DNA of 39,449 nt, taken from NCBI GenBank assembly GCA_903881565.1, contig CAIRTR010000220.1, forward strand, positions 1 to 39,449. The letters run 5' to 3'. Below the pieces are notes generated by a model. It was not told the DNA's origin, did no database searches, and saw nothing but the letters and a program-made list of their open reading frames with translations. Source of the DNA: Oligoflexia bacterium (GTDB lineage: Bacteria; Bdellovibrionota; UBA1018). The translations under genes and the position numbers were made by a program. Below are positions 3,704-38,678 of the stretch, piece by piece; within the stretch, counting starts at the first letter, position 1, and the number at the start of each line of letters is the position of its first letter.

Positions 3704-4315
3704 TTGCCATTCTTGCACGGCGGAAAAAACAAGCGGCTGAACACGAAAATGTTGGCTGTGGTGAGTTATTTATTTCTAATTTTCGCTGCCGGCTTTGCGC
3801 CAATCGCTTTTGCCGAAACTCCGCACGATTGTATTTGCCCCTATGACGAAACGATTCTCGCAAGTCCCGGCACACAAAGTTGTGGCCAGATCAGCTGTCC
3901 CGCTTGCGGGCATCTCATGGTGCGCGCACTTTATGTGGGTGGAAAACCAGACGGAGTTTTTCAAAATAAAAATAATATCGAGCAACCCGCGGGAATTCTA
4001 GGTGTGCCCGGCATCGTGGAACAACAGCCGCTTCCTGCAGCACTTCCGATTGCGGTAGCGCCGCCCGCTGCGGACAAGCCCAATGCGGTTAATACGATCA
4101 CTTATACCAATACCATCGCAGGAATTATCGAAGTGAGTTGTTCGAAATGTCATAGCGGGCCACTTCGTAATTTGATGACCTACGAAAACGTAAAAGTTTA
4201 CGTGGATAATAACCTTTTGTCGATGTTGGTTCGCCTGGGTGGACCGATGAATCGTTTTGCTGGAAAAGATGCGCCGGTGATTATTGATTGGGCTAAGAAC
4301 GGCGCGCCTAGATGA
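3704..4315 (+). CDS. Exported c-type cytochrome with CXXC motifs, mam operon gene
   Basis: A 203-residue exported protein. A TTG start is chosen because GGGAGG lies four bases upstream; the next ATG (3749) has no ribosome site. Hydrophobic residues at about 17-36 form a signal peptide or anchor ending near AFAETP. The N-terminal half has Cys pairs (CICPYD, CGQISCPACGHLM) resembling zinc-ribbon or rubredoxin-like knuckles. The C-terminal half has one heme-c site, CSKCH, followed by a possible axial Met in GGPMNRFAG, as in monoheme class I cytochromes. It opens the magnetosome operon, so a role in electron transfer to or from iron is inferred. The CPxCGxxM motif recurs in two later genes of the operon. 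Confidence 0.75.
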   Translation: MPFLHGGKNKRLNTKMLAVVSYLFLIFAAGFAPIAFAETPHDCICPYDETILASPGTQSCGQISCPACGHLMVRALYVGGKPDGVFQNKNNIEQPAGILGVPGIVEQQPLPAALPIAVAPPAADKPNAVNTITYTNTIAGIIEVSCSKCHSGPLRNLMTYENVKVYVDNNLLSMLVRLGGPMNRFAGKDAPVIIDWAKNGAPR

Positions 4316-4344
4316 AAACCGCTACAAGAAGAAGGGGCTGACAC

Positions 4345-4551
4345 ATGGAGATGATTGATAACGTGATGGGCATGAGTATCAAACGCAAGGTCCACCTTAT
4401 TGTAGGGATCGTGGCCCTGGTCTTGGGCGTCTATGGCGTGTATGACGAATATTTTAACGTCATCGATTTTTTGAAGGGCGCTTCACCTCTTATTTTTATC
4501 GCCGTGGGTGTGGTGGCGCTGGTGGCAGGGCTGACCAAGAAGATTCACTGA
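4345..4551 (+). CDS. mamI: MamI-like magnetosome membrane protein (copy 1)
   Basis: A 68-residue protein with two predicted membrane helices (about residues 16-34 and 45-63) joined by a short acidic loop containing YDEY. The size, the two helices and the GASPLIF segment before the second helix match MamI, which in Magnetospirillum is needed to form the magnetosome membrane. An AGAAGGGG ribosome site lies seven bases before the ATG. The next gene is a second protein of the same design starting five bases downstream. The assignment depends on the mam neighbourhood, because proteins this small give weak similarity. Confidence 0.7.
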   Translation: MEMIDNVMGMSIKRKVHLIVGIVALVLGVYGVYDEYFNVIDFLKGASPLIFIAVGVVALVAGLTKKIH

Positions 4552-4555
4552 ATAT

Positions 4556-4750
4556 ATGATTCAAATAGTAATTGGTTCTACATTTATTGGCTTGGGACTT
4601 TGGGGGGTTGTTGATGAGTGGTATTACCTCAAAGATTTGATTAGTGGCGCGGCCCCTGTTGCGATGATTTTGTTTGGGCTCATTGCAATATGGGTAGCGA
4701 TTATTGGAGACAACTTAGAAACGGAGACAGCAAAACATGACGACGAATGA
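4556..4750 (+). CDS. mamI: MamI-like magnetosome membrane protein (copy 2)
   Basis: A 64-residue protein with two helices (about residues 3-18 and 34-51), a loop with GVVDEWYYL and a GAAPVAMILFGLIA segment, then a short acidic tail. It has the same architecture as the gene just upstream and is closer to MamI in the G-L-W-G-V-V-D-E-W pattern of the first helix end. It starts five bases after the upstream stop, and its own ribosome site is poor, which suggests translational coupling. Its end overlaps the mamA-like start by 14 bases. The tandem arrangement suggests duplication followed by divergence. Confidence 0.72.
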   Translation: MIQIVIGSTFIGLGLWGVVDEWYYLKDLISGAAPVAMILFGLIAIWVAIIGDNLETETAKHDDE

Positions 4751-5510
4751 TTCAAAGATGAACGAAAACGAAAAGAAAATTGACCTGGATCAACCCGAGC
4801 CAAAGTCTAAAAAGAAGCGGGACACAGAGGGTAAGTCTGAAGGCAAGTCCGAAAAAAGCATGGATAAGACCTCTTTTGTCGTTGGATTCGACTACTTTGT
4901 GCACGTGACGATGTTGATGGCCGGAAAACTGTTGGCGAAGACGGTTGAGGGTTATAACAATATTTTCTCCATCGATCAAAAAGACAAAACGCAGATTCAC
5001 GAGAATCTTGGCAAAAAATATCTGAAGCGTGGCGAGTACGAAAAAGCCATCGATGCGTTTGAGAATGTCATGAAGCAGGGGACCAAATCGCCGCAGATTT
5101 TCTATTTAGCGGGCAAAGCCTATTTCAAAAACAATCAGCTTGAAAAAGCGATTGAATGCTTTGAGAAGACCCTGGTTCTGGTTCCTAACAATAAGGATGC
5201 GCTTTCGCAGTTGGGTTCAACCTACCTGCGCGCCAAAGATTATGACAAATGCCTTAAAGTTTTAGGTGAGGCAGCAGAGGTAAATCCTGGGGATAGCGAG
5301 CTCTTTTACAAGATGGGGATCGCCCATGACAAAAAAGGTGAGCTCGATAAGGCGATTCCGGAGTTTAGGAAAGCCATTGAGCTGAAGCCCGATGTCGCAA
5401 AGTATTATCAGCATCTTGGATTCGTGCTTCAAGCGTCAGGGGACGCGACAGAAGCCGGCAAGTGCTTCAAGAAGGTTCTAGAGCTTGAGAGCAGCGAGGA
5501 GCTCGATTAA
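4737..5510 (+). CDS. mamA: MamA-like TPR protein
   Basis: A 257-residue TPR protein. Residues 1-45 are highly charged and Lys-rich, 46-70 are moderately hydrophobic, and about 86-253 form five tetratricopeptide repeats with the expected G-Y-A-P spacing (for example LGKKYLKRGEYEKAIDAF). MamA is the abundant TPR protein that coats magnetosomes and acts as a scaffold; the Magnetospirillum protein has about 217 residues and similar repeats. The longer Lys-rich N terminus is a difference. It overlaps the upstream mamI-like gene by 14 bases and abuts the mamQ-like gene by one base. TPR proteins are common, so the name rests on both fold and context. Confidence 0.8.
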   Translation: MTTNDSKMNENEKKIDLDQPEPKSKKKRDTEGKSEGKSEKSMDKTSFVVGFDYFVHVTMLMAGKLLAKTVEGYNNIFSIDQKDKTQIHENLGKKYLKRGEYEKAIDAFENVMKQGTKSPQIFYLAGKAYFKNNQLEKAIECFEKTLVLVPNNKDALSQLGSTYLRAKDYDKCLKVLGEAAEVNPGDSELFYKMGIAHDKKGELDKAIPEFRKAIELKPDVAKYYQHLGFVLQASGDATEAGKCFKKVLELESSEELD

Positions 5511-6250
5511 TGCCCGGGCGAGTAAGGCACATCATTCGGAAGATTTCGCGGGATAAAGAGGATAAAATAGATCTCGAGGATTCTGACGATGAATCCCAGG
5601 GATCTGTGGACTCAGAAGCATACGACGAGCATGGAAACCCGCGCGAAGGCATTTATGCCGTCGCCTGGCGGCTGGGCTATGTCTTGCGAAAATGGTGGGT
5701 GCTGGTTTCGTGTACCTTTATCCTCGCGATCTCGGTCTACTATTACAATAATTTTTGGTTTCTTCGCTCTTATGCCCATAGAGACGCCGCTTCGGTGAAC
5801 GTCTATATGCAAATGAGACGGGATCTTTCGGCCAATCTGGAAAAATCCGTCATGGCCTATGCCCAACATGAAAGGGATATTTTCAAAAACGTAATGGAAT
5901 TCCGCACGATGATGGTCGGGATGAGCCCGGATATGAAAAAGGCCTTAGTCGAAAAGAGTGATAAAAAATCCAGCGAGCTTATGGGTAAGTTTTTCGGGAT
6001 CGCCGAGCAGTACCCGGATCTCAAGCTCAGTGCTGAGTTTCATTTTCTGATCGCGACCATTGAGAGTGCGGAAAAAGAACTCGCAGCGGCGCGGGTAAGG
6101 TACAACGTGAGCGTTGATAATTATACCACGGCGCTGGCGACGGTACCGGGTAACTTTTTTGCGGTGGCCTTTCGTTTTAAACCGTTGCCGTACTTTGAAC
6201 CTTCGACCAGTGCGACTGAATTTGCGCCCTTGGATTTTAACCCGAAATAG
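5510..6250 (+). CDS. mamQ: MamQ-like LemA-family protein
   Basis: A 246-residue LemA-family protein. An acidic cytoplasmic N terminus (1-55) precedes one membrane helix (about 61-80), followed by a helical LemA domain (about 89-232). The diagnostic C-terminal motif is present: YNVSVDNYTTAL, then VPGNFFAVAFRFKPLPYFE. MamQ is the LemA-type protein required for magnetosome membrane formation in Magnetospirillum. A GAGGAG ribosome site lies eight bases before the ATG, which overlaps the mamA stop by one base. LemA proteins also exist outside magnetosomes, but the position between mamA-like and CDF genes supports MamQ. Confidence 0.82.
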   Translation: MPGRVRHIIRKISRDKEDKIDLEDSDDESQGSVDSEAYDEHGNPREGIYAVAWRLGYVLRKWWVLVSCTFILAISVYYYNNFWFLRSYAHRDAASVNVYMQMRRDLSANLEKSVMAYAQHERDIFKNVMEFRTMMVGMSPDMKKALVEKSDKKSSELMGKFFGIAEQYPDLKLSAEFHFLIATIESAEKELAAARVRYNVSVDNYTTALATVPGNFFAVAFRFKPLPYFEPSTSATEFAPLDFNPK

Positions 6251-6289
6251 ATACAGCTCGAAAAGCTGTGGAGAGAGGGAGCTCGAAAC

Positions 6290-6760
6290 GTGAAAGCAGT
6301 CTTCAAAACCTCAGACATGAGACTCAAAGTGATTCTTTTGATCGCTTTTGTCGTGTTTTGCGTTTTGTTCGCCTTTTGGAGCGACTACAACCTAGCGACT
6401 GGGTCGGGAAACCTTTGCATGCTGCTCTTTATCGCGGCCCAATCCTATCTCCCTGCCAAGCATCTGCGCCTGTGGTTCATGCTCAAGGACGATATCTTTT
6501 TTGCAAAGTTCCTGCGTGTTCACTGTTGGCTGAACGTCGCGGGGTTCATCGCCATGTGCATCCATTGCTATGTCACTCATTGGCATAACAACTGGCTGTG
6601 GGTCGGCCTGATTATTATGGGGTGGCTGACTTTCGGGGGTGCGATTTTGCGATTTAAATACCCACCCAATGTTCGCAAAGGTCTTTATTTTCTTCATACC
6701 CAGATGTTCATGTTCATCGCTTTGTGTTTTGCGCTGTTGAAGGGGCACTATGTTTTCTAA
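6290..6760 (+). CDS. His-rich membrane protein, possible b-type cytochrome or ferric reductase-like
   Basis: A 156-residue integral membrane protein with four or five predicted helices. Histidines within or at the ends of helices (H78, H92, H97, H99, H136, H153), with pairs 14 and 17 residues apart, resemble the bis-heme arrangement of ferric-reductase-like or YedZ-like cytochrome b proteins. In Magnetospirillum, MamZ carries a ferric-reductase-like domain in the magnetosome membrane; this could be a stand-alone analogue. The start is a GTG at 6290 with AGGGAGC upstream. No FAD or NAD domain is attached, so if it is a reductase it needs another electron donor. The heme assignment is inferred. 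Confidence 0.6.
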   Translation: MKAVFKTSDMRLKVILLIAFVVFCVLFAFWSDYNLATGSGNLCMLLFIAAQSYLPAKHLRLWFMLKDDIFFAKFLRVHCWLNVAGFIAMCIHCYVTHWHNNWLWVGLIIMGWLTFGGAILRFKYPPNVRKGLYFLHTQMFMFIALCFALLKGHYVF

Positions 6761-6790
6761 GAAGTATTCTAAGAAGAAGGAGAGCTCGGA

Positions 6791-6931
6791 ATGTTAGCTT
6801 TGCTGTTATTGATCGCGGTTTTTGTAGGGATTTTCTTGGTTTATAAAAAACAGGTCGCTTTAGAAGAGCGGCTTAATGCGCAGGATCGTGAGACGCGTGA
6901 GTCGGATGATCCTTATAAGAAGCAGAAATAG
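6791..6931 (+). CDS. Small single-helix membrane protein, 46 residues
   Basis: A short gene between the cytochrome b-like and CDF genes. The ATG follows an AAGGAG site six bases upstream. The protein has one hydrophobic helix (LALLLLIAVFVGIFLVY, residues 2-18) and a charged tail rich in Glu, Arg and Lys. The layout resembles small cytochrome-oxidase accessory proteins such as CcoQ, but no family can be named. Its place after the b-type protein suggests a small subunit or stabiliser of it. Confidence 0.55.
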   Translation: MLALLLLIAVFVGIFLVYKKQVALEERLNAQDRETRESDDPYKKQK

Positions 6932-6945
6932 ACGGGAATAAGACC

Positions 6946-8022
6946 ATGGATGGATCCCCAAAAGATACTCAAGACGAGACCGAGAACGACGCGCTGATCG
7001 AATCGGCTGAATTGTCCGAAACGAGCGAAGCGCCAGCGGCAGGTGAGTGCTGTCAGCATCAAAAAGCGGGTTGTGAGAAGACCTGTCAAAAAGATTGCGG
7101 CCAGAAAGCCGGTCACTATGATGCGGACGGCCGGTATATTCCGCCTCAGAAGTGCCATAAGTGTTTGAGTTATGTTGCCACGGTCAACGTGGCCGGAAAT
7201 ATTTTTCTCGTTGCGATCAAGGCTTATCTCGGGATTGTCGGGGGATCCAAGGCCCTTTTTGCTGATGCCATTCACTCTTTGGGCGATTTGCTCGCAAGTT
7301 TCATGATGTTTATTGCGCTGAAGGTGGCCGATCGGCCGCAAGGCAAGGACTACCCCTATGGACGCGGTAAAGTCGAATACATTGCGGCTCTTTTGATTGC
7401 CGCATTTTTGGTGGTCTTGGGTGTTTTCATTTTAATCGATGGTATCCGCGATCTGGTCAGTGGCCGCTATGTAGCACCGCACTTTGTGACGGCGTGGGGG
7501 GCGTTGATTTCGATTATCGTCAACGAGATCATGGCGCGCCAGGGGCAATGCGTGGACGTGCGGTTCAATAAACCCTCAGTCGCGGCCGTGGCCTTGGAGA
7601 GTCGAGTCGATACGTATTCTTCTGCAGCGGTTTTGGTAGGGATTATTGGCGCAAAAGTTTCGTTTCCGGTGATCGATTCGATTTTTGCCGTGATCGTGGC
7701 GGTGATTATTTTGAAGTCAGCCGCGGATATGTTGGTTGAATCCGTCACCAAGCTTATGGATGTTTCGATGGATGGCGAGAAGATCGAGACGATTCGAGAA
7801 GTTGTGATGGGGATTCCGGGCGTCTCAGGTGTTGAGCATGTGCGGACTCGGGAGCTGGGTTCGAAAGCCGAAGTCGATGTGATCGTATTTGTGGATAAGA
7901 CACTTAAAGTGGCCCAGTTCGATGAACTTAAAAAGGCCGTATCGCAAGCCGTGCGATCAAAACTTGAATTTGACGGCGAAATCAGTGTGCGACTCAAACC
8001 ATTCTTAGGGGCTGAATCATGA
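6946..8022 (+). CDS. mamB: MamB/MamM-type cation diffusion facilitator with Cys-rich N terminus
   Basis: A 358-residue CDF transporter, which would move divalent iron into the magnetosome lumen in exchange for protons. Residues 1-73 are an unusual acidic extension carrying a Cys/His cluster (C35, C36, H38, C43, C47, C51, H57, C70, C73). Six membrane helices follow (about 75-270), then a cytoplasmic metal-sensing domain (about 275-352). Ligand positions in helix 2 are H110 and D114 (ADAIHSLGD) and in helix 5 E218 and D222 (ESRVD), so the transport site looks intact. It overlaps the next gene by four bases. Whether it is the MamB or the MamM orthologue cannot be settled without a tree. Confidence 0.82.
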   Translation: MDGSPKDTQDETENDALIESAELSETSEAPAAGECCQHQKAGCEKTCQKDCGQKAGHYDADGRYIPPQKCHKCLSYVATVNVAGNIFLVAIKAYLGIVGGSKALFADAIHSLGDLLASFMMFIALKVADRPQGKDYPYGRGKVEYIAALLIAAFLVVLGVFILIDGIRDLVSGRYVAPHFVTAWGALISIIVNEIMARQGQCVDVRFNKPSVAAVALESRVDTYSSAAVLVGIIGAKVSFPVIDSIFAVIVAVIILKSAADMLVESVTKLMDVSMDGEKIETIREVVMGIPGVSGVEHVRTRELGSKAEVDVIVFVDKTLKVAQFDELKKAVSQAVRSKLEFDGEISVRLKPFLGAES

Positions 8023-9287
8023 GCAAAGACCTGAATAAAAAGTTTTGTCAGCAGGAGCTGCGACCGCTGTTGGTAACCCTGGTCGCAGTGGTTCTTCTCA
8101 CCGTGGGGTGGATCACCTACCACGAGATTCAAATGAAGCGAGACCCGGCCTATGCGGCCCGGTATCATCGGGCGCTTCATCATCCGAAAACGAAGGAGGC
8201 GGGCGCGCAAGTGGCCGTGGGAACTCCCGTTGCCGTGCAAGGCCAAGTGGTGGCGGCAGCCAATGGGGGAATTCCTCCGATTAAATTAAGTGATGTCGTA
8301 ACCCATCCAAACTTCGGACAAGACTGCGCCAAATGTCACCAGGTGATCGGGCCCAAGAGTCGCGCGCCGATTGAGGGGGGGACGATTCCGATTACGGCGA
8401 ATATGCCCCATCCTTATTGGGGACCTTGCAATGTGTGCCATAAGGTCGTTGATGCCGCAGGAAAACCCGTTGCACTGAAGACAATTGATCCCCGAAGTAT
8501 TTTCGGCCTGGAGTTAATTGAAGCAGATGCGACTTTGACCACGAAACTGAATCTTCCCGATAAAAAGGGTCCGATCATCACCAAAGTGCTTCCCGGAAGT
8601 TTAGCCGAAGATCTCGGAATGCAAAATGGTGACATGTTCTTCACCGTGGATAATCGCAAAGTGGAAACGATTGCCGAGCTTGAGCGCGCACTGGGCGCAT
8701 TTGCGGCAGGCGATGTGGTTCGCCTGAGTGTATGGCGCGAGCGGCGCGAGAAGATCTTTAGATTGGCAATCCCTGATATCGCAGCCCAAGCGGCTGAAGG
8801 CGTTCCCAATGGCGCGCTGCCTGGCCAGCCCATCGCTGCGATGACCGTTGCCCAAGTGGATCCTAATACGGCAGTGGCGGATCCGACGCCGGATTCAACA
8901 ATCGTTGCAATCGCGGCGGTCGGCAAAGATGTGAATGCGGTTGTGGCTAATGATCTGGGAACTTCACCTTATTTTGTGATCGTGGATCTCAAGCGCAATT
9001 CGTACAAAGTCGTGCAGAATGCGGGTGGAACCGGACCTCAAGTGGTTCAGGATTTGATGGATATGGGGGTTGAAGCAGTCATTTGCGGCTATATCGGGCA
9101 AGGGGCCGCGGCCAGTCTCACCTCCTTGGGGATCAAAATGTATCCAGGCGTGAGCGGCGATGTGAAGGGTGCCATAGGTGCTTTCAAGCAAGGAACCTTG
9201 AGGGAAGCAACGACGAGTAATGCTCAAGGCGGGCTGGGTACCGCTCCTATTGCTCCCGTCGGTCCCGGGAGAAGGAGAACACTTTGA
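8019..9287 (+). CDS. MamP/MamE-type magnetochrome-PDZ protein with NifX-like C terminus
   Basis: A 422-residue protein. One N-terminal membrane anchor (about 14-33) is followed by a magnetochrome domain with two heme-c sites, CAKCH (103-107) and CNVCH (137-141), the second preceded by the typical PHPYWGPC. A PDZ domain spans about 165-250. The C-terminal domain (about 295-395) has the pattern of the NifX/NafY/NifB-C dinitrogenase iron-molybdenum cofactor family (SPYFVIVDL, then VEAVICGYIGQGA and GIKMYPG). Magnetochrome occurs essentially only in magnetosome proteins (MamP, MamE, MamT, MamX), where it handles iron redox. The fused NifX-like domain could bind iron or an Fe-S cluster. It is coupled by four-base overlaps to both neighbours. 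Confidence 0.82.
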   Translation: MSKDLNKKFCQQELRPLLVTLVAVVLLTVGWITYHEIQMKRDPAYAARYHRALHHPKTKEAGAQVAVGTPVAVQGQVVAAANGGIPPIKLSDVVTHPNFGQDCAKCHQVIGPKSRAPIEGGTIPITANMPHPYWGPCNVCHKVVDAAGKPVALKTIDPRSIFGLELIEADATLTTKLNLPDKKGPIITKVLPGSLAEDLGMQNGDMFFTVDNRKVETIAELERALGAFAAGDVVRLSVWRERREKIFRLAIPDIAAQAAEGVPNGALPGQPIAAMTVAQVDPNTAVADPTPDSTIVAIAAVGKDVNAVVANDLGTSPYFVIVDLKRNSYKVVQNAGGTGPQVVQDLMDMGVEAVICGYIGQGAAASLTSLGIKMYPGVSGDVKGAIGAFKQGTLREATTSNAQGGLGTAPIAPVGPGRRRTL

Positions 9288-10885
9288 GTAACCAAAACAG
9301 TAATGAATCAAATAGTGTTTGGAAAAATCTCGACGTACGAACCCTTCTGATCGTCACGCTCTCAATCACGGTTGTGATTGGGTCGCTCCTGTATTTTGTC
9401 GATAAGCCCAACGCCAAAAGAAACGAAGAGACTCCGATTCAGATTGCCGCGAATCAGCCTGTCGGTGCGGTCAACGGAGGCCCGATTTGGTTGGGCGCCG
9501 ATGTTGAAGACATCACGCCGGACATGGTGACGAAGCTTGAACTGCATGCCGCTCAAGGCGTGTACGTTCAAAAAGTGCAGCGAGACTCTCCCGCAGAGAT
9601 GGCGGGCCTTAAAAGAGACGATGTGATCACGAGTGTGGACGCGACCAAAATCACGAGCGTTGCAGAATTGGCTGCCTTGCTTGAAGCAAAAAAAGACGGG
9701 GATCGAATCAAGATCAGGGTCATGCGTAACGATGCCAAGCAGTCGCTCAACGTCAAACTGTCCCTAAAGATCACCCAAGACAAAATTAAACAAAAAATGA
9801 CCGCAAAAGTCGTGGCCGCGAACATGGATGCGGACGCCTGGATCGGGATCGATGTGCAGTCTTTGGATACCGTAATGATACGTCAGCTGAAACTTCCGGA
9901 TTCGCGCGGCGTGATTGTCTCGCATGTTTTTCCGGGGGGGCCTGCGGGACAAAGTGGGTTAGTTCGGGGCGACATTATTCGTAATATCGACAAGACTCCG
10001 GTCAATGACCGGATTGCCTTGTCCGAGTTTTTGCTCAATAAGAAACCAGGAGATAGCCTCAAGCTTGACGTTTATCGAAACGGCAATGCACTCGAAGTGC
10101 TCGTAACGGCGTCGAGTATGCCGGTTGCGGCTGTGGGCGAACCCCCGGCGTTGCCCGGTGCGGACATTGAGGTTGAAGCGAGTTGGTTGGGCCTAACCGT
10201 GGTTCCACTGGATCCTTTAGAAGCTAAAGAATTGGGATTGCCCTCGGGCACGAAGGGTATTGCGGTGGATGGAATTTCGATTGGCCCTGCATTTAATGCG
10301 GGCTTTCAGGCGGGCGACATCATAGTCGCGGTCAACGGAATGCCAACCACGACCTTAAGACAGTTTGCAGAAGCGACCGAAGGTGCCAAGGGTGCGATGG
10401 TTGATGTTTGGCGCGGAGGCCGGCATCGCTTCGTGACGATCGCGACTCCGGGATTGGATCGTCAGGGCAATCAGTTGCCGAATTCTGCGGCGGCCTCTCA
10501 GGTGGCGCAGATGCTGCCCGTGGATAACGGCATGAAATACGTGGCTGTTGCGTCGATGAGCTCCGGAGCTTCGTCTCAGGTGTCTCCCATGTTTTCAAAG
10601 AGTCCTTATTTTCAGATCGTTGATTTAAAATCCAATGCCATCACGACGCTTCTTAATCCAAACACGGATGCCACCGGGATTATTACAGCTAAGTGGCTTT
10701 TGAAGAATCATGTCGACGCGGTGATTGCAGGCCGTATTGGGCCCAGGGCTTTTGATGCCTTGGCGGGAGCAAAAGTTGCGATTTATGCGGGAACCTTTGG
10801 ATCATTAGCAGATGTGGTGCAAGCGTTTCGCGAAGGAAAGTTAAAGCCAAGCGTGGCGGTGTTGGGTTCGGCTGAAAAGAGGTGA
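9284..10885 (+). CDS. Triple-PDZ protein with NifX-like C-terminal domain
   Basis: A 533-residue membrane-anchored protein. One helix (about 20-38) is followed by three PDZ domains (about 68-162, 184-276 and 299-388), each with a recognisable carboxylate-binding region and an AGxxxGD-type core (AGLKRDD, SGLVRGD, AGFQAGD). A C-terminal NifX-like domain follows (about 417-521; SPYFQIVDL, VDAVIAGRIGP). It has neither a protease domain nor CXXCH. Together with the upstream magnetochrome-PDZ gene and the downstream protease gene it appears to hold one part of a divided MamE. PDZ domains would sort or recruit proteins at the magnetosome. The NifX-like domain repeats that of the upstream gene, so the two are probably related by duplication. 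Confidence 0.8.
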   Translation: MSNQNSNESNSVWKNLDVRTLLIVTLSITVVIGSLLYFVDKPNAKRNEETPIQIAANQPVGAVNGGPIWLGADVEDITPDMVTKLELHAAQGVYVQKVQRDSPAEMAGLKRDDVITSVDATKITSVAELAALLEAKKDGDRIKIRVMRNDAKQSLNVKLSLKITQDKIKQKMTAKVVAANMDADAWIGIDVQSLDTVMIRQLKLPDSRGVIVSHVFPGGPAGQSGLVRGDIIRNIDKTPVNDRIALSEFLLNKKPGDSLKLDVYRNGNALEVLVTASSMPVAAVGEPPALPGADIEVEASWLGLTVVPLDPLEAKELGLPSGTKGIAVDGISIGPAFNAGFQAGDIIVAVNGMPTTTLRQFAEATEGAKGAMVDVWRGGRHRFVTIATPGLDRQGNQLPNSAAASQVAQMLPVDNGMKYVAVASMSSGASSQVSPMFSKSPYFQIVDLKSNAITTLLNPNTDATGIITAKWLLKNHVDAVIAGRIGPRAFDALAGAKVAIYAGTFGSLADVVQAFREGKLKPSVAVLGSAEKR

Positions 10886-10889
10886 TCTT

Positions 10890-11627
10890 TTGATTCGTGG
10901 ATGGAGTCGCGCATTTTTGCTGATTTTGAGTTTGTCTTCGCAATTTGGCGCGTCCTCCGTTTATGCGGGGCCGAAAGCCGTGGGGATCAAGACCAAAGAA
11001 GCGGTTGCGGCGATTAGGCCTGCCACGGTCAGTATCAGGGCCCTTCGTGGCAATGGGGGCGCTTTTTATCAAAGTATCGGTTCAGGAGTTTTGGTTTCAG
11101 AGGATGGCTATATTTTGACTAATGATCATGTGGTGGGCGATTCGCAAAGTATTGAGGTAACGGTTTGGAAAGCGAAGGAACAAAAATACATCGGGCGCCT
11201 CGTGCATTCAGATAAGAAACGCGATCTGGCGTTGATTCGAATCAGGCCGCGTAATGGCGAGCGGTTCGCAATGGCCAAGTTTGCCAAGCTTAATGAGCCG
11301 TTGAGAGTACGCACCGGCGATCGGGTTCTCGCGATCGGCAACCCCTTTGGTCTGGGGCACACCGTTACGAGTGGGATCGTGGGGAACACGTCCAGATCGC
11401 TTTCGGTCGGGACATTAAATTATGAAGGCCTGATTCAAACGGATGCGCCGATCAATCAGGGAAACAGCGGGGGACCTTTGGTTAACCTGCGCGGCGAAGT
11501 TGTAGGAATCAATACCGCGATTTTAGCGGTGAATACGGAGAGTGGAGCGTTTTCAGGGCAGGGATTTGCGATTCCAATGGATGTGGCAATGGGCTTTGCG
11601 GCCGAGGTGATGCGTGGCGGGATTTGA
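10890..11627 (+). CDS. mamE: MamE-type trypsin-like (HtrA/Deg) serine protease, no PDZ
   Basis: A 245-residue exported protease of the HtrA family. A signal peptide (residues 1-26, ending VYAGP) precedes a trypsin-like domain with an intact triad: H80 (TNDHVVG), D112 (RDLALI) and S193 (GNSGGP). The PDZ and heme domains of classical MamE are absent and lie in the two genes upstream. MamE processes magnetosome proteins and is required for crystal growth in Magnetospirillum. The start is a TTG at 10890 preceded by AGAGGTGA. The next gene begins 14 bases before this one ends. It would act in the periplasm or magnetosome lumen. Confidence 0.8.
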   Translation: MIRGWSRAFLLILSLSSQFGASSVYAGPKAVGIKTKEAVAAIRPATVSIRALRGNGGAFYQSIGSGVLVSEDGYILTNDHVVGDSQSIEVTVWKAKEQKYIGRLVHSDKKRDLALIRIRPRNGERFAMAKFAKLNEPLRVRTGDRVLAIGNPFGLGHTVTSGIVGNTSRSLSVGTLNYEGLIQTDAPINQGNSGGPLVNLRGEVVGINTAILAVNTESGAFSGQGFAIPMDVAMGFAAEVMRGGI

Positions 11628-12594
11628 TAAGATAAAAGACTTTCGACTTACGAAAGAGAACATCGCGCAATCCGCGACTTGGGTTTTCTTACTCAAGTTT
11701 CTTGTGGTCGCGTTCGTGGCAGGATTTTTCGTAAGAGCGATGTGGCCGGCTAAGCCTGTTCCGCGCTCGAGTGCCCGGATGCCGGTTGTGGTCGGCGAGG
11801 GGGAGCAGCAGCTGGAACCGCAGCTGGAGCCGCAAATGGAACCTCGTATGGAACCGAGGCTGGAACCTCGAATGGAGCCCGCCGTGGAACCCCAAGGTGT
11901 TGCGCTGCAAGTGCCGCAACCCGGTGACGGCGGCGCGATTGACGAAAGCCTGCACCAGGTTGTGAGCCTGGTTCGGCCTGCCGTAATCAAGATTATTGTG
12001 GTGCCTAATCAAAGAACTGGGACCGACCCCAATACCGGCATCAAGATGGGTGATCCCTTCGTGATGAATTCGAATCTGGCCGTGGGCTCCGGCGTGATCA
12101 TCGATTCGAAGGGTTTGTTCATCACCACGAAGCATGTGGTTGGCGATAATAATAATTTGCAGGTGGTTCTCTACCGCGCGGGTCAAAATCAATTTACGGC
12201 GCGCATTGTGGCGCGAGATCCTGATTCACCGCTGGTGATTGGAAAGATTCGTTCTACTGAAAAGTTTCCGTTTGCCCGAATGGCGAATTCTGATCGTCTG
12301 CGCACGGGCGATGTCGTGATGGCAGTCGGTAATCCTTTTTCACTCTCCGGCACGGTCACCTCCGGGATTGTCAGTGGCAAAAAGGATGTGACCGTAAATG
12401 GCCTGCTGGTGCAAGGGGCCATTCAAACCGATGCCACGATTAACGATGGCAATTCGGGCGGGCCGCTCGTGAATGTAGATGGTGAAGTGGTCGGGATCAC
12501 ATTCGCTTCTTATGTGCAGGGCGGGAATTTTACAGGGATTGGTTTTGCGGTTCCCATTAACTTTGCCAAAGAGGCTTGGGGAACGGCTCCTTAA
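11614..12594 (+). CDS. mamO: MamO-like membrane-anchored degenerate serine protease
   Basis: A 326-residue trypsin-like protein. It has an N-terminal helix (about 22-40), a Glu-Pro repeat linker (67-94) and a protease fold (about 110-320). The catalytic His (H174, TTKHVVG) and Ser (S281, GNSGGP) are kept, but where an Asp is expected (family pattern DLAxL) the sequence reads SPLVIGK, with Pro at 206. D202 and D204 lie nearby. Loss of a triad residue fits MamO, a pseudoprotease in Magnetospirillum that promotes mineral nucleation. The start is a GTG with GAGGTGA upstream, overlapping the protease gene by 14 bases. Rescue by D204 cannot be excluded, so inactivity is inferred. Confidence 0.78.
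   Translation: MAGFDKIKDFRLTKENIAQSATWVFLLKFLVVAFVAGFFVRAMWPAKPVPRSSARMPVVVGEGEQQLEPQLEPQMEPRMEPRLEPRMEPAVEPQGVALQVPQPGDGGAIDESLHQVVSLVRPAVIKIIVVPNQRTGTDPNTGIKMGDPFVMNSNLAVGSGVIIDSKGLFITTKHVVGDNNNLQVVLYRAGQNQFTARIVARDPDSPLVIGKIRSTEKFPFARMANSDRLRTGDVVMAVGNPFSLSGTVTSGIVSGKKDVTVNGLLVQGAIQTDATINDGNSGGPLVNVDGEVVGITFASYVQGGNFTGIGFAVPINFAKEAWGTAP
11812..11895 (+). repeat. Glu-Pro tetrapeptide repeat in the MamO-like linker
   Basis: Seven copies of a 12-base unit encode [Leu/Met/Val]-Glu-Pro-[Gln/Arg/Ala] at residues 67-94. The unit is a degenerate tandem repeat in DNA as well as protein, so copy number could vary between strains. It should form a stiff, extended spacer between the membrane anchor and the protease domain. 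Confidence 0.8.
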
Positions 12595-12644
12595 AATTTA
12601 TGGGAAAGTTGTGAGAAATTTGTGAAATATGAGGGAGACAGAGC

Positions 12645-13058
12645 ATGAAACAAGATGAATCAACAACACCGTCGGATTCGCTATTAGCCGTGAAGGGTAA
12701 AACTGGACTGTGGTTGATCGTGGTTTTCGTCGTTACTCTCTTGAGTACCGGGCTTTATGTCACGATCAATGGCTACGATAAGTGGAAAGGCGATATGAAG
12801 GATGCGGCCGTTTACTTGCAGGCCGCGGCCGGCGCACCCGCACCCGCTCCTGCTGGAGCGCCCCAGGCGAATACCGTAGATCGTGTTTTGCAAATTCTTC
12901 AGCCTGTTCCCGTTGCCAAGAAGAACGTCGTTACAAAGCAGGCGGGGCAATATGTCTGTCCGGTCTGTGGTGCAACGGGTTTACCGGATTATGCCGTCAA
13001 TGGCGATCCGGTCTGCCAGGTTTGCCGACATAAAATGGAAGTCATTTATGTCAAATAG
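12645..13058 (+). CDS. Membrane-anchored CXXC protein, mam operon
   Basis: A 137-residue protein with one helix (about 21-40), a Pro/Ala-rich linker (61-75) and a C-terminal knuckle pair, CPVCG (105-109) and CQVCRHKM (124-131), as in zinc-ribbon or rubredoxin-like folds. CQVCRH is not a heme site because the His is one residue too far. The four Cys would hold Zn or Fe on the lumen side. The CPVCG and C..C..KM pattern matches the next gene and the first gene of the operon, so these look like a family. The function is unknown; iron binding or redox is plausible from context. Confidence 0.7.
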   Translation: MKQDESTTPSDSLLAVKGKTGLWLIVVFVVTLLSTGLYVTINGYDKWKGDMKDAAVYLQAAAGAPAPAPAGAPQANTVDRVLQILQPVPVAKKNVVTKQAGQYVCPVCGATGLPDYAVNGDPVCQVCRHKMEVIYVK

Positions 13059-13500
13059 CGGGTCAAATAATGGCCTAGATAATGGGCCAAATAGCGGCTC
13101 CGATAGCACAAAGATCTGGGGCATCTTAGGCCTCATCGGTCTTGTGGTCGTGTTGGCCGTGAGCTTTGTGCTTTCGGGAAGCAAGAGAACCATAAACGCC
13201 GATGATTTGCGAAAAGGGCATCACCCCGTGGATGGCCCCGCTGATGGTAAAGGGGATCCACTAGGGGATCCAAGAGGTGACAAAGTCGCGTTCACGCAAA
13301 ACATCATCCCCCAGCGCTCTGTCGAAGGCTCTGTGGTCTGTGACAAAGATCATACCCACGGCTATCCCGTGTGTGGGAGCTGTAAGAAGATCATGCAACC
13401 CCTTGGTAACGGCTTATTTGTTTGCCCGGAATGTGGAAAAATCGGCCTCCCCATTTGTCCTGTGTGTGGAGAGCTAATGCATTCAGTGGCTAAACCGTGA
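13048..13500 (+). CDS. Membrane-anchored CXXC-rich protein, paralogue of the upstream gene
   Basis: A 150-residue protein. The open frame extends further upstream, but that part lies inside the preceding gene; I chose the ATG at 13048, which follows GGAAG and gives an 11-base overlap. An Asn/Ser/Gly-rich N terminus (2-20) precedes one helix (about 23-43). A linker with repeated Gly-Asp-Pro follows, then seven Cys in a C-terminal region (C98, C109, C112, C126, C129, C137, C140; motifs CGSC, CPECG, CPVCGELM). This looks like two stacked metal knuckles. It resembles the upstream gene and the operon's first gene. Metal binding is inferred; no catalytic motif is seen. Confidence 0.68.
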   Translation: MSNSGSNNGLDNGPNSGSDSTKIWGILGLIGLVVVLAVSFVLSGSKRTINADDLRKGHHPVDGPADGKGDPLGDPRGDKVAFTQNIIPQRSVEGSVVCDKDHTHGYPVCGSCKKIMQPLGNGLFVCPECGKIGLPICPVCGELMHSVAKP

Positions 13501-13531
13501 ACATTTTGGAAGATTAGAGGAGATGACTTAG

Positions 13532-13801
13532 ATGGTAAAAAAAGTTTTCTACATTATCGGCATATTTCTCCTCATTCTTTTTGTCGTGCAGAACTCCTCG
13601 CACGTTCCGGTGGTGTTTCTCACCGGGAAGGCACACTTTAGGAGCATCTTCTTAATCTTCTCGTGTTTTGCCGCCGGATTTTTGTCTGGTTACTATTTTG
13701 TGTTTCGCAAAGAAGAGGTGTTTTTTGAACGGATTCGTCACCTCAAAAAACTCTTGGAAAAAGAGCGACGCAAGAACCAGAAGCGGCCAGAAGTGGAATG
13801 A
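13532..13801 (+). CDS. mamL: MamL-like LapA-type membrane protein
   Basis: An 89-residue protein with two helices (about 4-20 and 36-56). The VVQNSSHVPVVFL segment after the first helix is typical of the LapA (DUF1049) family, and the C-terminal tail is strongly basic (KKLLEKERRKNQK). MamL of Magnetospirillum is a LapA-like two-helix protein with a positively charged tail, needed for membrane invagination. A GAGGAG site precedes the ATG. LapA-like proteins are widespread, so the MamL label depends on the operon. The next gene begins four bases after the stop. Confidence 0.72.
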   Translation: MVKKVFYIIGIFLLILFVVQNSSHVPVVFLTGKAHFRSIFLIFSCFAAGFLSGYYFVFRKEEVFFERIRHLKKLLEKERRKNQKRPEVE

Positions 13802-13804
13802 CGA

Positions 13805-14500
13805 ATGAGTGAGAGCCTTGAGGATCAGGACACAGGTTTTCTCTCTGGGCTGAATGAGAAACTCGCCGCCAGCGTGCGTGGCGTCTACCGCGGGATTTCA
13901 CATGATGAGATTGTTTCAGAAACGCTCACGGTGAGCGCTAAAAATCCCGAGTGGAGTCAGCGCAAGCGGGCTAAGAGTGTGGTCAATACCTGCATCAAGC
14001 AGTGTGGGGGCGCGGGTTTGACCGCCGCCAGTGTTTCGATGATTCCCGGTATTGGCGTGGGCATCGCCTATGGGAGCATCATCCCCGAAGAATTGTATGT
14101 GCTGCGCTCGTTATTTGTCATGGTTCTTCGGATCGGAAACATTTATGGTTTTTCGCCTGAAGCGGTGGGGTTTGAAGTCGCGCTTGCCTTGGTGGGGCGC
14201 GAAGAATTGGCCAATCCTGATCTTGGAAAAACAATGAGGACCTCGCTTGGAACTTCAATGCTGCGAAAAACCGCGACGAAGACGGCGGACCGCATGGTAT
14301 CGAAGGTTTTGGCAGGGAGATTAGTGGCCGGGGTTGAAGAAGGGGTAATTAGACGAACTCTGGTTTCGAGCACTTTGCTCAAGGGGGTCGTCAAACGGCT
14401 CCCGCTACTGGGGCTCGCCATTGGAAGTGGAATGAACATTTACGCGGCCGATAGTGTCGGTCGTCGTGCGATTCGTTATTTTGCGAGGGAAACCGTATGA
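13805..14500 (+). CDS. EcsC-like protein in the mam operon
   Basis: A 231-residue protein whose central part (about 55-115: a Gly/Ala-rich pair of hydrophobic segments, then ELYVLRSLFVMVLRIGNIYGF) resembles the EcsC family, whose role is poorly known. A second hydrophobic segment lies near 195-212. It is not a standard mam gene. It is coupled on both sides: four bases after the mamL-like stop and a four-base overlap with the following CDF. Association with the magnetosome membrane is inferred from position and hydrophobicity. The EcsC assignment is from pattern only. Confidence 0.55.
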   Translation: MSESLEDQDTGFLSGLNEKLAASVRGVYRGISHDEIVSETLTVSAKNPEWSQRKRAKSVVNTCIKQCGGAGLTAASVSMIPGIGVGIAYGSIIPEELYVLRSLFVMVLRIGNIYGFSPEAVGFEVALALVGREELANPDLGKTMRTSLGTSMLRKTATKTADRMVSKVLAGRLVAGVEEGVIRRTLVSSTLLKGVVKRLPLLGLAIGSGMNIYAADSVGRRAIRYFARETV

Positions 14501-15366
14501 AACAGCCGCAATGTCAAGAATGTGCAGTCAAAGCCGCCTGGATTGGGGTGGGCATCAGTTTTGTTTTAGCACTGATGAAATACTATATCGGGTGGGTTGG
14601 AGGATCAGCAGGCGTCATGGCCGCCGCGATTCATTCGACGGTATGTCTGGTTTCATCAGCCTCGATTCTTTTTACCCAATATTTTGCGGGCCGGAAACCC
14701 GATGAGCGTTATCCCTACGGTTATGGAAAAATCGAGTTTGTAGCCTCTGCTTTGGTGAACACTTCAATCCTGGTCGTGATGTCACTTTTCTTGGTCTCCA
14801 ATGTGAGAGCGCTTTTAGAAGAGTTGCATCATGTTCCCCACGTGACCGCGGCGGTGGTGGCGGCGACTTCGGTGATCGCAAATGAATTTCTGTTTCGGTA
14901 TTTTAGGTGTGTGGGCTCTGAGATGAACTCTCCCACGATCATGTCCGCCGCCTGGGCGGTTCGAACGGATGCCCTGACATCGTTGGTTGTGCTTCTGGCC
15001 ATCATTGGTACCAGCCTGGGCATTCAACACCTGGACCCAGTGGTGGCAATTTGTATCATATTGATTTTATTTAAGATTGTCGGCGAAAATCTTATTCACG
15101 CGGTGCAGGGGTTAATGGATTATTCGTTGGACGATGGTTTGCCATTGCGCATTAAAATCTTGCTAAAACAGATCCCAGAGATTATAGACATACCAAGTTT
15201 GAAAACCCGTTCGATGGGTCAAGTTTGCAAAATTGACCTTGAACTTAAAGTGGCGCCGGAGTTGACGGCGGAGGAGACGGGGCAGTTGGAGCAGAAAGTG
15301 TGTCGGCTGATTCGGGCCAAGGAACAACGAATCGGCGATATCACAGTTGGGTTTGTCGGCGTTTAG
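14497..15366 (+). CDS. mamM: MamB/MamM-type cation diffusion facilitator with altered metal site
   Basis: A 289-residue CDF protein: six helices (about 12-210) and a cytoplasmic C-terminal domain (about 215-287). It begins with the short Cys pair CQEC seen in MamB, and has ERYPYGYGKIEF and CVGSEMNSP, which are MamB/MamM-like. At the transport site helix 2 reads H46-S-T-V-C50 where family members have Asp at 50, and helix 5 reads A154-V-R-T-D158 where His or Asp is expected at the first position. Only part of the site remains. In Magnetospirillum MamB and MamM form a heterodimer, so this copy may be structural or regulatory. The MamB or MamM identity is unsettled. Confidence 0.8.
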   Translation: MKQPQCQECAVKAAWIGVGISFVLALMKYYIGWVGGSAGVMAAAIHSTVCLVSSASILFTQYFAGRKPDERYPYGYGKIEFVASALVNTSILVVMSLFLVSNVRALLEELHHVPHVTAAVVAATSVIANEFLFRYFRCVGSEMNSPTIMSAAWAVRTDALTSLVVLLAIIGTSLGIQHLDPVVAICIILILFKIVGENLIHAVQGLMDYSLDDGLPLRIKILLKQIPEIIDIPSLKTRSMGQVCKIDLELKVAPELTAEETGQLEQKVCRLIRAKEQRIGDITVGFVGV

Positions 15367-15390
15367 CGAATTTACCTATTTGGAGCGGCA

Positions 15391-15855
15391 ATGGCATTTA
15401 TCAGAGATTGCAAAGTCTGCGAATTTCGTGGCTACAGCCCTGAACTCTGCAAGATGCATCGGCGTCATATGGCGGTTGCCGATAAGCTTGCCAAGACCAA
15501 AAAACGCAGGCTCGCGACGTTTGATAAAAAAGAAGCCATTGCCATTCTTGAGCGTGAAGCGCGAGAAAAGCTGTTTCGTGACGCTAGCTATTCTGCAGCC
15601 GTGGGCGCCGTTATTGGATCGAGCAGTGGGTTTGCAGGCGTGGCGTTGGCAGGGGGGGCCCTGGCGGCCATTGCTTCACCGCTGATGGTGGGGGCTGCGA
15701 TTGCGGGCGCGGGGATTGCCACTGCGATGCAATTAGGGAAGCGATCGAAAAAAGGAACTGCGGTCGCATCTTGCGAAGGGGACTGCTCTTTGTCATCCGT
15801 TTTTGGTTCGTGTGGGAAAAAGCGGGTTCCTGAGGTTCAGCTAGAAAATTATTGA
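15391..15855 (+). CDS. Cys/His-headed Gly-rich membrane protein, mam operon
   Basis: A 154-residue protein. The N terminus carries a Cys/His cluster (C7, C10, C20, H23, H26; CKVCEFRGY then CKMHRRHM) that could bind a metal ion. A charged helix (about 28-68) follows, then a long Gly/Ala-rich hydrophobic region (about 70-112) that could form two helices. The tail has three Cys. Gly-rich hydrophobic stretches occur in crystal-associated proteins such as MamD, MamG and Mms6, but composition alone is weak evidence. GGAGCGG precedes the ATG. It is the first of two Gly-rich proteins after the CDF gene. Function unknown. Confidence 0.65.
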   Translation: MAFIRDCKVCEFRGYSPELCKMHRRHMAVADKLAKTKKRRLATFDKKEAIAILEREAREKLFRDASYSAAVGAVIGSSSGFAGVALAGGALAAIASPLMVGAAIAGAGIATAMQLGKRSKKGTAVASCEGDCSLSSVFGSCGKKRVPEVQLENY

Positions 15856-15898
15856 AGTGATGTGGGTAGTAACAGAAGACTAACAAGGGGAGTATTCA

Positions 15899-16231
15899 AT
15901 GAGCGGAAGTACATTTGAGACCGAAAATTTTGAAATTAAATCCAATAAAGGCAACGGCACGGCAGGCGCAGAAATCGATTTAGAGAAGTCGATCAACACT
16001 GAAGACGCGCTTCTGCTCGGGGCCAAGACCATGGCCGGCATCGGGATTGGCTTTGTCGTGGTAACTCTTGGCGCAACAGGCGTGGGCGCTTTGCTTGAGG
16101 CGACAATTATTCCTACCGTGCTTGCAAAAGTTGCGGGCGCAATCGCAGGCGGCGGAGTCGGGTTATCCAAGGGAATTTCGGATAATCGCAAAGACAAATC
16201 ACGCCGTAAGCGCTCTGTACATTTTGCTTAA
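15899..16231 (+). CDS. Small Gly-rich membrane protein, possible MamC-like
   Basis: A 110-residue protein. A polar N terminus (1-35) precedes two Gly/Ala-rich hydrophobic segments (about 39-62 and 70-92) and a basic C-terminal tail (NRKDKSRRKRS). An NTEDALLLGAKTMAG stretch before the first helix and the size recall MamC (Mms13), which controls crystal size, but the match may only reflect composition. AAGGGGAG lies before the ATG. The function is not established; its place at the end of the mam genes supports a magnetosome membrane role. Confidence 0.6.
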   Translation: MSGSTFETENFEIKSNKGNGTAGAEIDLEKSINTEDALLLGAKTMAGIGIGFVVVTLGATGVGALLEATIIPTVLAKVAGAIAGGGVGLSKGISDNRKDKSRRKRSVHFA

Positions 16232-16255
16232 TATCAGGCTCCTTGAAGGAGCTTG

Positions 16256-16831
16256 ATGAGCTTAATCATGGCGGGATCTCCGAAAAATAAAATGAAATGC
16301 AGCACCGAGAAGTGCGCCTGCATGTTGCCTTGCGGGCGAAAAAAAACCCGTTGTGAGGGGCAGGAGAAGGCCAAGCAATCCAAGTGGCGAGAGACTTTAG
16401 AAGCCTACATCGCTAAAGCGGACTTGAAACACTCCAAGCAGCGGTTCCAGATCGCGGAACTCATTGTCTCATCAGGGGTTCACTTGGATGCCAAGGGCAT
16501 CTTGGAGCGGGTTCGGAAAAAGTATCCCGAAATCGGCGCCGCGACCGTTTACCGAAACATCAAGACTCTTTGTGACGCCGAAATTCTTCATGAGTCCATG
16601 CGCGATCCCAGCGGTCACATGGTCTATGAGCTGAACACCGGCGAAGATCATCACGATCATATTGTCTGCAAAGACTGTGGTGAGATTTTTGAATTCAACA
16701 GCGAAAAACTTGAAGTGTTGCAGGAGTCGCTCGCCAAGGAGATGGGGTTTGAAGTGGTTCAGCATCGGCATGTGATTTATGCAAAATGTCTGTTTAAAGA
16801 ACGCGCTTTGCACGCTGAGAAAAAGAAATGA
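16256..16831 (+). CDS. fur: Fur-family metal-dependent regulator with Cys-rich N terminus
   Basis: A 191-residue Fur-family repressor, which binds DNA when loaded with metal. Residues 1-35 are an extension with five Cys (C15, C20, C22, C26, C33) not present in standard Fur. A winged helix (about 45-125; ATVYRNIKTL) is followed by the metal and dimer domain with DHHDHIVCKDCGEIFEF (C138, C141). The second C-terminal CxxC of many Fur proteins is absent; only C178 remains. The ATG at 16256 lies four bases after GAAGGAG; a TTG just before it is possible. It ends the mam operon and overlaps the receiver gene by four bases, so it probably controls iron or magnetosome genes. It could also be a PerR-like sensor. 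Confidence 0.85.
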   Translation: MSLIMAGSPKNKMKCSTEKCACMLPCGRKKTRCEGQEKAKQSKWRETLEAYIAKADLKHSKQRFQIAELIVSSGVHLDAKGILERVRKKYPEIGAATVYRNIKTLCDAEILHESMRDPSGHMVYELNTGEDHHDHIVCKDCGEIFEFNSEKLEVLQESLAKEMGFEVVQHRHVIYAKCLFKERALHAEKKK

Positions 16832-17202
16832 GTCCCGTTAAAATCTTGGTCATCGACGATGAGGATTCTGTTCGTATCCCCTTGATGAAGCTTTTGTCAT
16901 TGGAGGGTTATGAAGTAAGCGGCGCCGTCAATGGCGCTGAAGGCCTGGACGCGTTTAAACAGTTGGCTCCTCAAGTCGTCGTCTCAGATATCCGGATGCC
17001 CATATTCGACGGCATAGAGGTACTGACCAGGATAATGGAAAGCGCACCTGCGACGATCGTGATTATGATCACAGGGTATGGGGATGATGGTTTCCATGAT
17101 TTGGTTTTGAAGTTGGGTGCTCGAGATTATTTTGAAAAGCCCGTAGCCTATGAGGAGTTGCTGTCGGCGATCAAAGATGAGCTTGGCTCGGTTGACGGCT
17201 GA
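16828..17202 (+). CDS. Single-domain response regulator (CheY-like receiver)
   Basis: A 124-residue receiver domain with acidic residues near the start (DDED), a phospho-acceptor Asp in VVSDIRMP, a Thr in MITGYG and a Lys in FEKPV. It has no output domain. The ATG overlaps the fur stop by four bases, so it is co-translated with the regulator. It could link a sensor kinase to magnetosome expression or to motility. Its 3' end overlaps the convergent CDF gene by 55 bases. Confidence 0.85.
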   Translation: MSPVKILVIDDEDSVRIPLMKLLSLEGYEVSGAVNGAEGLDAFKQLAPQVVVSDIRMPIFDGIEVLTRIMESAPATIVIMITGYGDDGFHDLVLKLGARDYFEKPVAYEELLSAIKDELGSVDG

Positions 17203-17867
17203 TCGCCGCAAGCGCACCCACAGCCCCCTGAAAAATCAGGGCGTCTTGCGGCACGCACCGTCTCCCAACCTTCTTTTGCAATGAGCAGCGCCAAACCAAG
17301 TCCCGCAATCGAATCTATCCACCAAAGCGCCGGAAACTCGAGAAAAACCAAACTCCCAAAGAACAAGATGATCGAGAGTTTAATGCAAGCCAGGGAGCAT
17401 GCCGCGTCTTTCATGACCGTGGCACTGTTTAAAATGCGCGCGGCTTTTGTTTTGGCCTTCCAAAGAAAAAACATAAAACTCAAACTCACGACTGAAATCA
17501 CCAGGCCCGAAAGCGTGGTCGAAGGATGGGATCCACTCTTGAGCTGCAGTGCGGAGGCCAGGGCGGTAAGAAGTGCCAAGAGAATAAATAAGGCACCGAT
17601 GCCCAACGTGGCTTGGCGTTCGCGCTTGATTGATAAGATGGATAGTCCTTCTTTTTGCTCTGCTTCGCCCCTGAAGCGCCACAAAACTAAAGCTGCTGAT
17701 GCAACTTCAATGAGGCTATCGGCACCAAAGCCTGCTAACGCAACGGACTCATCGTTAATGCCAAAACCAATCGATACAGCTCCTTCGAGCAGGTTGTACC
17801 CAATGGTGAAGCAAGCCAAGTAGAGGGTCCAGCGAATCCAAGAGGTTTGGGTTGAGGTTAGTGACAT
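17148..17867 (-). CDS. Short CDF-family cation transporter, Cys-rich tail
   Basis: A 239-residue CDF-type transporter of the short class that lacks the cytoplasmic metal-sensing domain. Six helices span about 12-205, with acidic residues in GFGADSLIEV and MKDAACS. The C-terminal tail contains GGCGCACGD, a Cys cluster able to bind metal. It is the last gene of the feo run and overlaps the FeoB-associated gene by 10 bases. The substrate is probably iron, zinc or manganese, and the feo context favours iron efflux or balance. It is not close in motif to the two MamB/M-type proteins. Confidence 0.78.
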   Translation of the reverse strand: MSLTSTQTSWIRWTLYLACFTIGYNLLEGAVSIGFGINDESVALAGFGADSLIEVASAALVLWRFRGEAEQKEGLSILSIKRERQATLGIGALFILLALLTALASALQLKSGSHPSTTLSGLVISVVSLSFMFFLWKAKTKAARILNSATVMKDAACSLACIKLSIILFFGSLVFLEFPALWWIDSIAGLGLALLIAKEGWETVRAARRPDFSGGCGCACGDQPSTEPSSSLIADSNSS

Positions 17868-20244: not shown

Positions 20245-20257
20245 GTTCGACTTCTTT

Positions 20258-20280
20258 CTAGTTTCTTGCCTAGTTTCTTG
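20258..20280. repeat. Short tandem repeat before feoB
   Basis: CTAGTTTCTTGC at 20258-20269 is followed directly by CTAGTTTCTTG at 20270-20280. It sits in the 47-base gap between the DtxR-FeoA and feoB genes, next to the feoB ribosome site. It is probably a local duplication. Any regulatory effect is unknown. Confidence 0.6.
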
Positions 20281-20291
20281 ATCTATTTTTC

Positions 20292-38675: not shown

Positions 38676-38678
38676 GGG

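Follow-up and report, generated by a model that had tools for sequence, protein, structure and literature searches.

Magnetosome gene clusters (MGCs), which encode the magnetic compass organelles of bacteria, have recently been described from the phylum Bdellovibrionota, where a search of 772 public genomes recovered 21 with magnetosome genes, distributed over four classes and none with mamK (Bergot et al. 2026, PMC13200544). In that work mad28 was present in all of the assembled clusters and magnetite chains were imaged in cells of class UBA1018; the replacement for MamK was left open, with Mad28, the sole actin mentioned in the main text for these clusters, named as a candidate (PMC13200544). 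Here we analyze contig C220, 39,449 bases in length and hereafter called the window, from an assembly (genome G000) of 4.56 Mb in 323 contigs that is 98.75% complete. We conclude, with a probability of roughly 0.9, that positions 3704-17202 of the window constitute the mamAB-type core of a mad-type (deep-branching) MGC, that the rest of this cluster lies on three other contigs, and that lateral transfer best explains the likeness between the clusters of two families, f1 and f13. The cluster is of a type already described in 2026, and its points of interest are two candidate new magnetosome actins and the probable lateral transfer.

For comparison we used six other genomes of the phylum. G143 ('Oligoflexia bacterium LJ_bin-4497') belongs to the family of the window genome (f1), G206 ('uncultured Bdellovibrionales bacterium Kiruna_bin-06382') to another family of the phylum (lineage f13), and G164, G251, G259 and G261 make up f15. 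Because the named relatives are Oligoflexia and Bdellovibrionales, the host is of the Bdellovibrionota/Oligoflexia type, as a preliminary description of this DNA had supposed. Its remark that the branch is sparsely sampled is still fair, although the group has been imaged and described in 2026 (PMC13200544). The preliminary description had also placed about 20 tightly packed genes on one strand, and we find 21 genes on the + strand, several of which overlap their neighbour by a few bases, with intergenic gaps below 200 bases. The window proteins were searched with NCBIfam and Pfam profiles; the receiver, FeoB and FeoA assignments were read from the sequence. The features of the core and the adjoining iron genes are as follows.

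3704..4315, +, CXXC protein with one CXXCH (CSKCH), first gene of syntenic MGCs; 53-67% identity in G206/G143, weak Haem_bd match (0.1)
4345..4551, +, MamI copy 1; NCBIfam MamI 4.6e-15
4556..4750, +, MamI copy 2; NCBIfam MamI 2.2e-15
4737..5510, +, MamA (TPR); NCBIfam MamA 4.9e-57, 192.7 bits
5510..6250, +, MamQ (LemA family); NCBIfam MamQ 1.3e-19, LemA 7.2e-31
6290..6760, +, small multi-helix membrane protein at the mad2 position (mamQ/mamB interval); no family match, 44-90% identity in six MGC genomes
6791..6931, +, 46-aa one-helix protein, MamL-like by position only; 48-67% identity in G206/G143
6946..8022, +, MamB (CDF transporter); NCBIfam MamB 1.1e-69
8019..9287, +, FmpB/MamP-like, magnetochrome (two CXXCH), PDZ and NifX; PF18509 3.3e-9, PDZ, PF02579 1.6e-15
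9284..10885, +, MamE-Cter/FmpA-like, three PDZ and NifX; PF13180 9.6e-42, PF02579 4.3e-15
10890..11627, +, MamE-Nter-like trypsin-type protease, H-D-S triad intact; PF13365 1.2e-31
11614..12594, +, MamO-like putative pseudoprotease, catalytic Asp lost; PF13365 9.2e-28
12645..13058, +, membrane-anchored, two CXXC motifs (zinc-ribbon or rubredoxin-like); weak Zn-ribbon matches, homologues in other MGC genomes
13048..13500, +, membrane-anchored, two Cys-rich units; weak Zn-ribbon matches, 46-68% identity in G206/G143
13532..13801, +, MamL-like (LapA domain); PF06305 2.3e-6, position kept in relatives
13805..14500, +, EcsC-like; PF12787 0.0044, sub-cut-off
14497..15366, +, MamM-like second CDF transporter; NCBIfam MamB 6.6e-59, MamM 2.1e-58, FieF 83 bits against MamB 200
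15391..15855, +, glycine-zipper membrane protein; each of the six other MGC genomes checked has a homologue
15899..16231, +, glycine-zipper membrane protein; other MGC genomes have homologues, MamC model reaches only 0.59
16253..16831, +, Fur-type regulator; PF01475 3.2e-32
16828..17202, +, response-regulator receiver; comparable receivers flank the G143 MGC
17148..17867, -, third, divergent CDF transporter; PF01545 2.7e-7, 76% identity beside the MGC in G143
18058..20244, -, FeoB, first copy (second on contig C257); 83% identity at the same place in G143
20292..20993, -, FeoA-domain regulator; 69% identity at the same place in G143

The magnetosome character of this operon, proposed in the preliminary description, is borne out by the profile searches. 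MamI (4345 and 4556), MamA (4737) and MamQ (5510) were the top NCBIfam matches of their proteins, and both CDF proteins matched the MamB/MamM models best, far above the general CDF families. MamA, MamB, MamE, MamI, MamM and MamQ are thus encoded together with a magnetochrome protein and MamE- and MamO-like proteins, a mamAB-type gene content, and the joint occurrence of such a gene set in one operon is not due to chance. No mms genes were seen in the window. Of the two MamL-like proteins, that at 13532 came close to support (LapA_dom, 27.8 bits against a cut-off of 28), whereas that at 6791 had no support from hidden Markov models.

The gene order CXXC-mamI-mamI-mamA-mamQ-(6290)-mamB-FmpB-PDZ/NifX-MamE-MamO-CXXC-CXXC-mamL-mamM-glycine zippers is common, wholly or nearly, to all six comparison genomes, and the published Desulfobacterota order (FSS-1) is closely similar (PMC7951924). 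Since this conserved order includes FmpB (magnetochrome, PDZ and NifX) and has a membrane protein in the place of mad2, the cluster is of the mad type. The gene set had been considered unusual, a view that does not hold: the CXXC/zinc-ribbon, NifX-tailed PDZ and multi-helix proteins are conserved in all or most of the MGC genomes of the phylum that were checked, and the combination of magnetochrome, PDZ and NifX is that of FmpB from Desulfovibrio magneticus RS-1 (PMC4287615). The EcsC-like protein is a non-standard member to the extent that it is confined to this genome and G143, with no match in the other five MGC genomes, but its assignment to the family is weak.

Sequence details of the core proteins are consistent with their assignments. 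The His, Asp and Ser triad of the MamE-type protease is kept in 7 of 7 genomes, as are both CXXCH motifs of the FmpB-like protein (8019). In the MamO-type protein the Asp is lost in the window genome, G143 and G206, and G206 and family f15 have Ala or Asn in place of the Ser. Magnetospirillum MamO is known as a pseudoprotease, and these losses are a similar pattern, even though the MamE model outscores the MamO model for both trypsin-type proteins (10890 and the MamO-like 11614). The MamM-like protein (14497-15366) carries HxxxC at a membrane metal site whose usual residue in CDF proteins is Asp, while MamB keeps HxxxD; the site of the MamM-like protein is eroded in the f15 relatives as well. 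Four histidines (H78, H92, H136 and H153) of the 6290 protein are invariant in six genomes, and the spacing of H92 and G152 (60 residues) is close to the 61 residues between H101 and G162 of RS-1 Mad2, for which the mutants H101Y and G162S are non-magnetic (PMC4287615). These features may fit a haem-type membrane protein, which we keep as a working hypothesis: the haem-b idea gained no fold or family support, the AlphaFold model being poor (pLDDT 56), Foldseek returning nothing below E 0.79, and the protein's profile giving no match to MsrQ, to a cytochrome b561 or to the PDB.

Further parts of the cluster were located on other contigs of the same assembly. C257 (11 kb) was reached by way of a weak match to the MamK model, and C61 and C168 were found by searching the assembly with G143 DNA. 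C257 encodes a Mad28-like actin, a PilZ-type protein, ParA, FeoA/FeoB (the second FeoB) and a third MamI; this block recurs on the G143 MGC contig, and the MGC contigs of G206 and G251 have most of it. C61 carries genes for HEAT, coiled-coil, AAA and receiver proteins along with two actin-type genes (ActA and ActB), and C168 carries TauE and ferredoxin. A mad-type chain/iron module is thereby present over the three contigs: HEAT (mad23), coiled coils, ATPases, Mad28-like, FeoAB (mad17/30), TauE and ferredoxin. As far as can be judged the cluster is complete, but split over four contigs.

Two different FeoB/FeoA pairs accompany the cluster, here and in G143 (window 17148-20993, - strand; L085:8023-10654, - strand), one of them beside the third CDF transporter. 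HipB/HipA-like and HigA/HigB-like toxin-antitoxin genes are situated beside the Mad28-like actin on C257 (L085:2101-3688, + strand; 6690-7317, - strand), and in G143 a Fic/Doc gene (L019:3451-3837) directly follows the mamAB block; toxin-antitoxin genes have been reported in Bdellovibrionota MGCs (PMC13200544). Runs of two-component genes adjoin the cluster pieces (window 33952-39435; L100:1-5606; L085:1-1781), as reported beside other Bdellovibrionota MGCs (PMC13200544).

The preliminary description noted that mamK is absent, and this stands for the window and for the whole assembly, in which the best match to NF040964 was MreB at 79 bits, compared with more than 400 bits for membership, and nothing else exceeded 25 bits. 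As a statement on actins it was incomplete, since a Mad28-like gene and two more actin-type genes are present on the other contigs. Because mamK has been reported absent from all Bdellovibrionota MGCs (PMC13200544), its lack here does not exclude membership of the mamAB type. The Mad28-like protein (383 aa) gave 21.6 bits to the MamK model and was missed by the MreB_Mbl model by itself, but matches Pfam Volactin (PF25216) over its full length (1.7e-71); its gene is followed by the PilZ-type and ParA genes. By its size, RS-1 Mad28 being 42.6 kDa, and its place before ParA, it is probably Mad28. ActA (409 aa) has a match to MreB-like_C above cut-off and is 64-93% identical across families; the divergent ActB (330 aa) has a weak match to the same model (0.025). 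Profile comparison of ActA with ActB gave 85%, comparisons of either with the Mad28-like protein gave no match, and searches of solved structures with ActA and ActB gave no convincing relatives. Inspection of alignments showed, in all three proteins, actin-superfamily motifs of the phosphate and adenosine types.

Among 369 genomes of the phylum, one identical set of 8 encodes each of the three actin-type proteins. This set is made up of the seven MGC genomes analyzed here plus G306, which belongs to the same genus as G261. ActA and ActB are therefore two more actin-type candidates for the role of MamK, with perfect co-occurrence, which makes the question of its replacement testable. The idea that no actin serves chain assembly was ruled out by the Mad28-like gene on C257 and the actin-type genes on C61. 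We propose tentatively that Bdellovibrionota chains run on a MamK-free skeleton of Mad28-like, ActA and ActB with AAA, ParA and coiled-coil neighbours, and that this whole apparatus moves between lineages as a unit, a proposal that we rate at somewhat less than even odds. Two additional paralogues were observed: a second ActA-like gene within a 685-residue frame in G164 (G164:C37:44897-46009; 293 bits to the ActA profile), and in G206 a second full-length MreB paralogue besides the main MreB (G206:C4:54146-55120; 402.7 bits).

We also compared the divergence of the cluster with that of the hosts, for which RpoB, with MreB, served as the stand-in. G000 and G206 share 64% identity in RpoB and 76% in MreB, while their cluster proteins are 52-73% and ActA 88% identical. 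Within f15, RpoB is 79% and MreB 91% identical, while cluster proteins are 45-75% identical. When cluster tree distances are divided by those of RpoB, the ratio is 0.72 for G000-G206, compared with 2.2-3.6 within f15 and 1.7-2.2 between groups. The clusters of the G000 family and of a distant family would thus share an ancestor more recent than the ancestor of their hosts, for which lateral transfer is the best explanation. The genes likely passed between the lineages f1 and f13, or reached both from a common donor. The distance data suggest a sideways spread of magnetotaxis within the phylum, and bear on whether loss or gain lies behind its patchy distribution.

The same data could reflect slow evolution of magnetosome genes after vertical descent, and some of them agree with this: the concatenated cluster and RpoB trees have the same branching order, so that lateral transfer rests on distances and patchy distribution rather than on topology, and the G000-G143 ratio (1.06) is likewise lower than those within f15. 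The G000-G206 distance is, however, too short even at the f1 rate (0.63 where about 0.93 would be expected), and ActA retains 85-88% identity where RpoB has 64-65%. Only two f1 genomes among those searched carry the cluster, and vertical descent would accordingly need many losses. We consider slow evolution unlikely, and retain lateral transfer as the better account. The shared branching order nevertheless weighs against our overall interpretation, as do several other points. Every magnetosome model scores below the NCBI equivalog cut-off in the window proteins, as is expected for a lineage far from the well-studied ones. The link between the four contigs (C220, C257, C61 and C168) consists solely of their binning and of synteny with G143, and the mad numbers were assigned by position, size and domain in a comparison without reference mad sequences. 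The expression, mineral and magnetotaxis of the host species, which is represented by a metagenome-assembled genome, are deduced.

The species has no recorded phenotype, and family models only weakly support several of the small genes (6791, 13805), as might be found if the cluster were decayed or silent, a remnant unused for magnetosomes. This is very improbable given that every core gene is open, that the MamE triad, both haem motifs and the actin motifs are intact, that a full further module is present on the other contigs, and that the compared cluster proteins are 64-93% identical to those of G143. The CDF, HtrA, LemA and TPR families are widespread outside magnetosomes, so a general set for vesicles, iron efflux or membrane stress could in principle merely resemble a magnetosome cluster. 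We give this almost no credence: MamI, MamA and MamQ are top matches by a wide margin, magnetochrome matches above cut-off are confined, within the phylum, to MGC genomes and were absent from all 14 control genomes, the order matches published Desulfobacterota clusters (PMC7951924), and MamI, magnetochrome and the shared order, taken together, contradict it. The locus is a genuine magnetosome cluster, and probably a functional one, of a sparsely sampled, uncultured branch of the Bdellovibrionota related to the predatory bdellovibrios.

By homology, MamI, MamL, MamQ and MamB would bend the inner membrane into a vesicle, which MamA would coat. FeoB/FeoA would load the cell with iron, and MamB and MamM would carry it in; the magnetochrome protein and the Cys-rich proteins may set its redox state. 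MamE is predicted to process other proteins and the MamO-like pseudoprotease to aid nucleation, with Fur linking the magnetosome set to the iron supply. Chain positioning, with no MamK, could involve the Mad28-like actin, the two further actin-type proteins, ParA, HEAT and coiled-coil proteins.

Some observations concern genes apart from this core. An MFS transporter gene (window 26654-28045) is also near the cluster in G143, G206 and G251; in contrast to the cluster genes, its G206 and G251 versions are about equally similar (66-67%). Another locus in G261 (L030:8972-11348, G261:C66) encodes a magnetochrome/PDZ protein, a MamQ-like protein and a glycine-zipper protein and may be an additional, incomplete magnetosome set, and G306 has a magnetochrome frame similar to it (G306:C4:8722-8784). 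Sub-cut-off matches to the magnetochrome model in four genomes lacking the cluster actins (G161:C57, G104:C1, G230:C5 and G360:C70) are probably other multihaem proteins.

Compared with known systems, the cluster is most like the Bdellovibrionota MGCs (UBA1018/Bdellonasia and others; PMC13200544), with which it shares a mamAB-type operon plus mad genes, FeoAB, a Mad28-like actin, the lack of MamK, and nearby two-component runs and toxin-antitoxin genes. It differs from them in having an EcsC-like gene and fur inside the operon and, relative to the main text of that report, in its two further actin-type proteins, which are also found in the other MGC genomes examined. The order mamI/mamA, mamQ, mad2, mamB, mamP-like (FmpB), mamE-Cter, two protease-type genes, further mad genes, mamL and mamM closely resembles that of Desulfovibrio (Solidesulfovibrio) magneticus RS-1 and FSS-1 (PMC4287615, PMC7951924), but RS-1 has MamK and Mad28, whereas the window genome lacks MamK and has extra actin-type genes. 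The Magnetospirillum mamAB operon shares the core MamA, B, E, I, L, M, O and Q functions; here MamK is lacking, MamE is split into protease and PDZ proteins, and NifX tails are present. The whole-model match of the Mad28-like protein relates it to Volactin, the actin homologue of Haloferax volcanii, from which it differs by an N-terminal extension and, among genomes of the phylum, by its occurrence in MGC genomes only.

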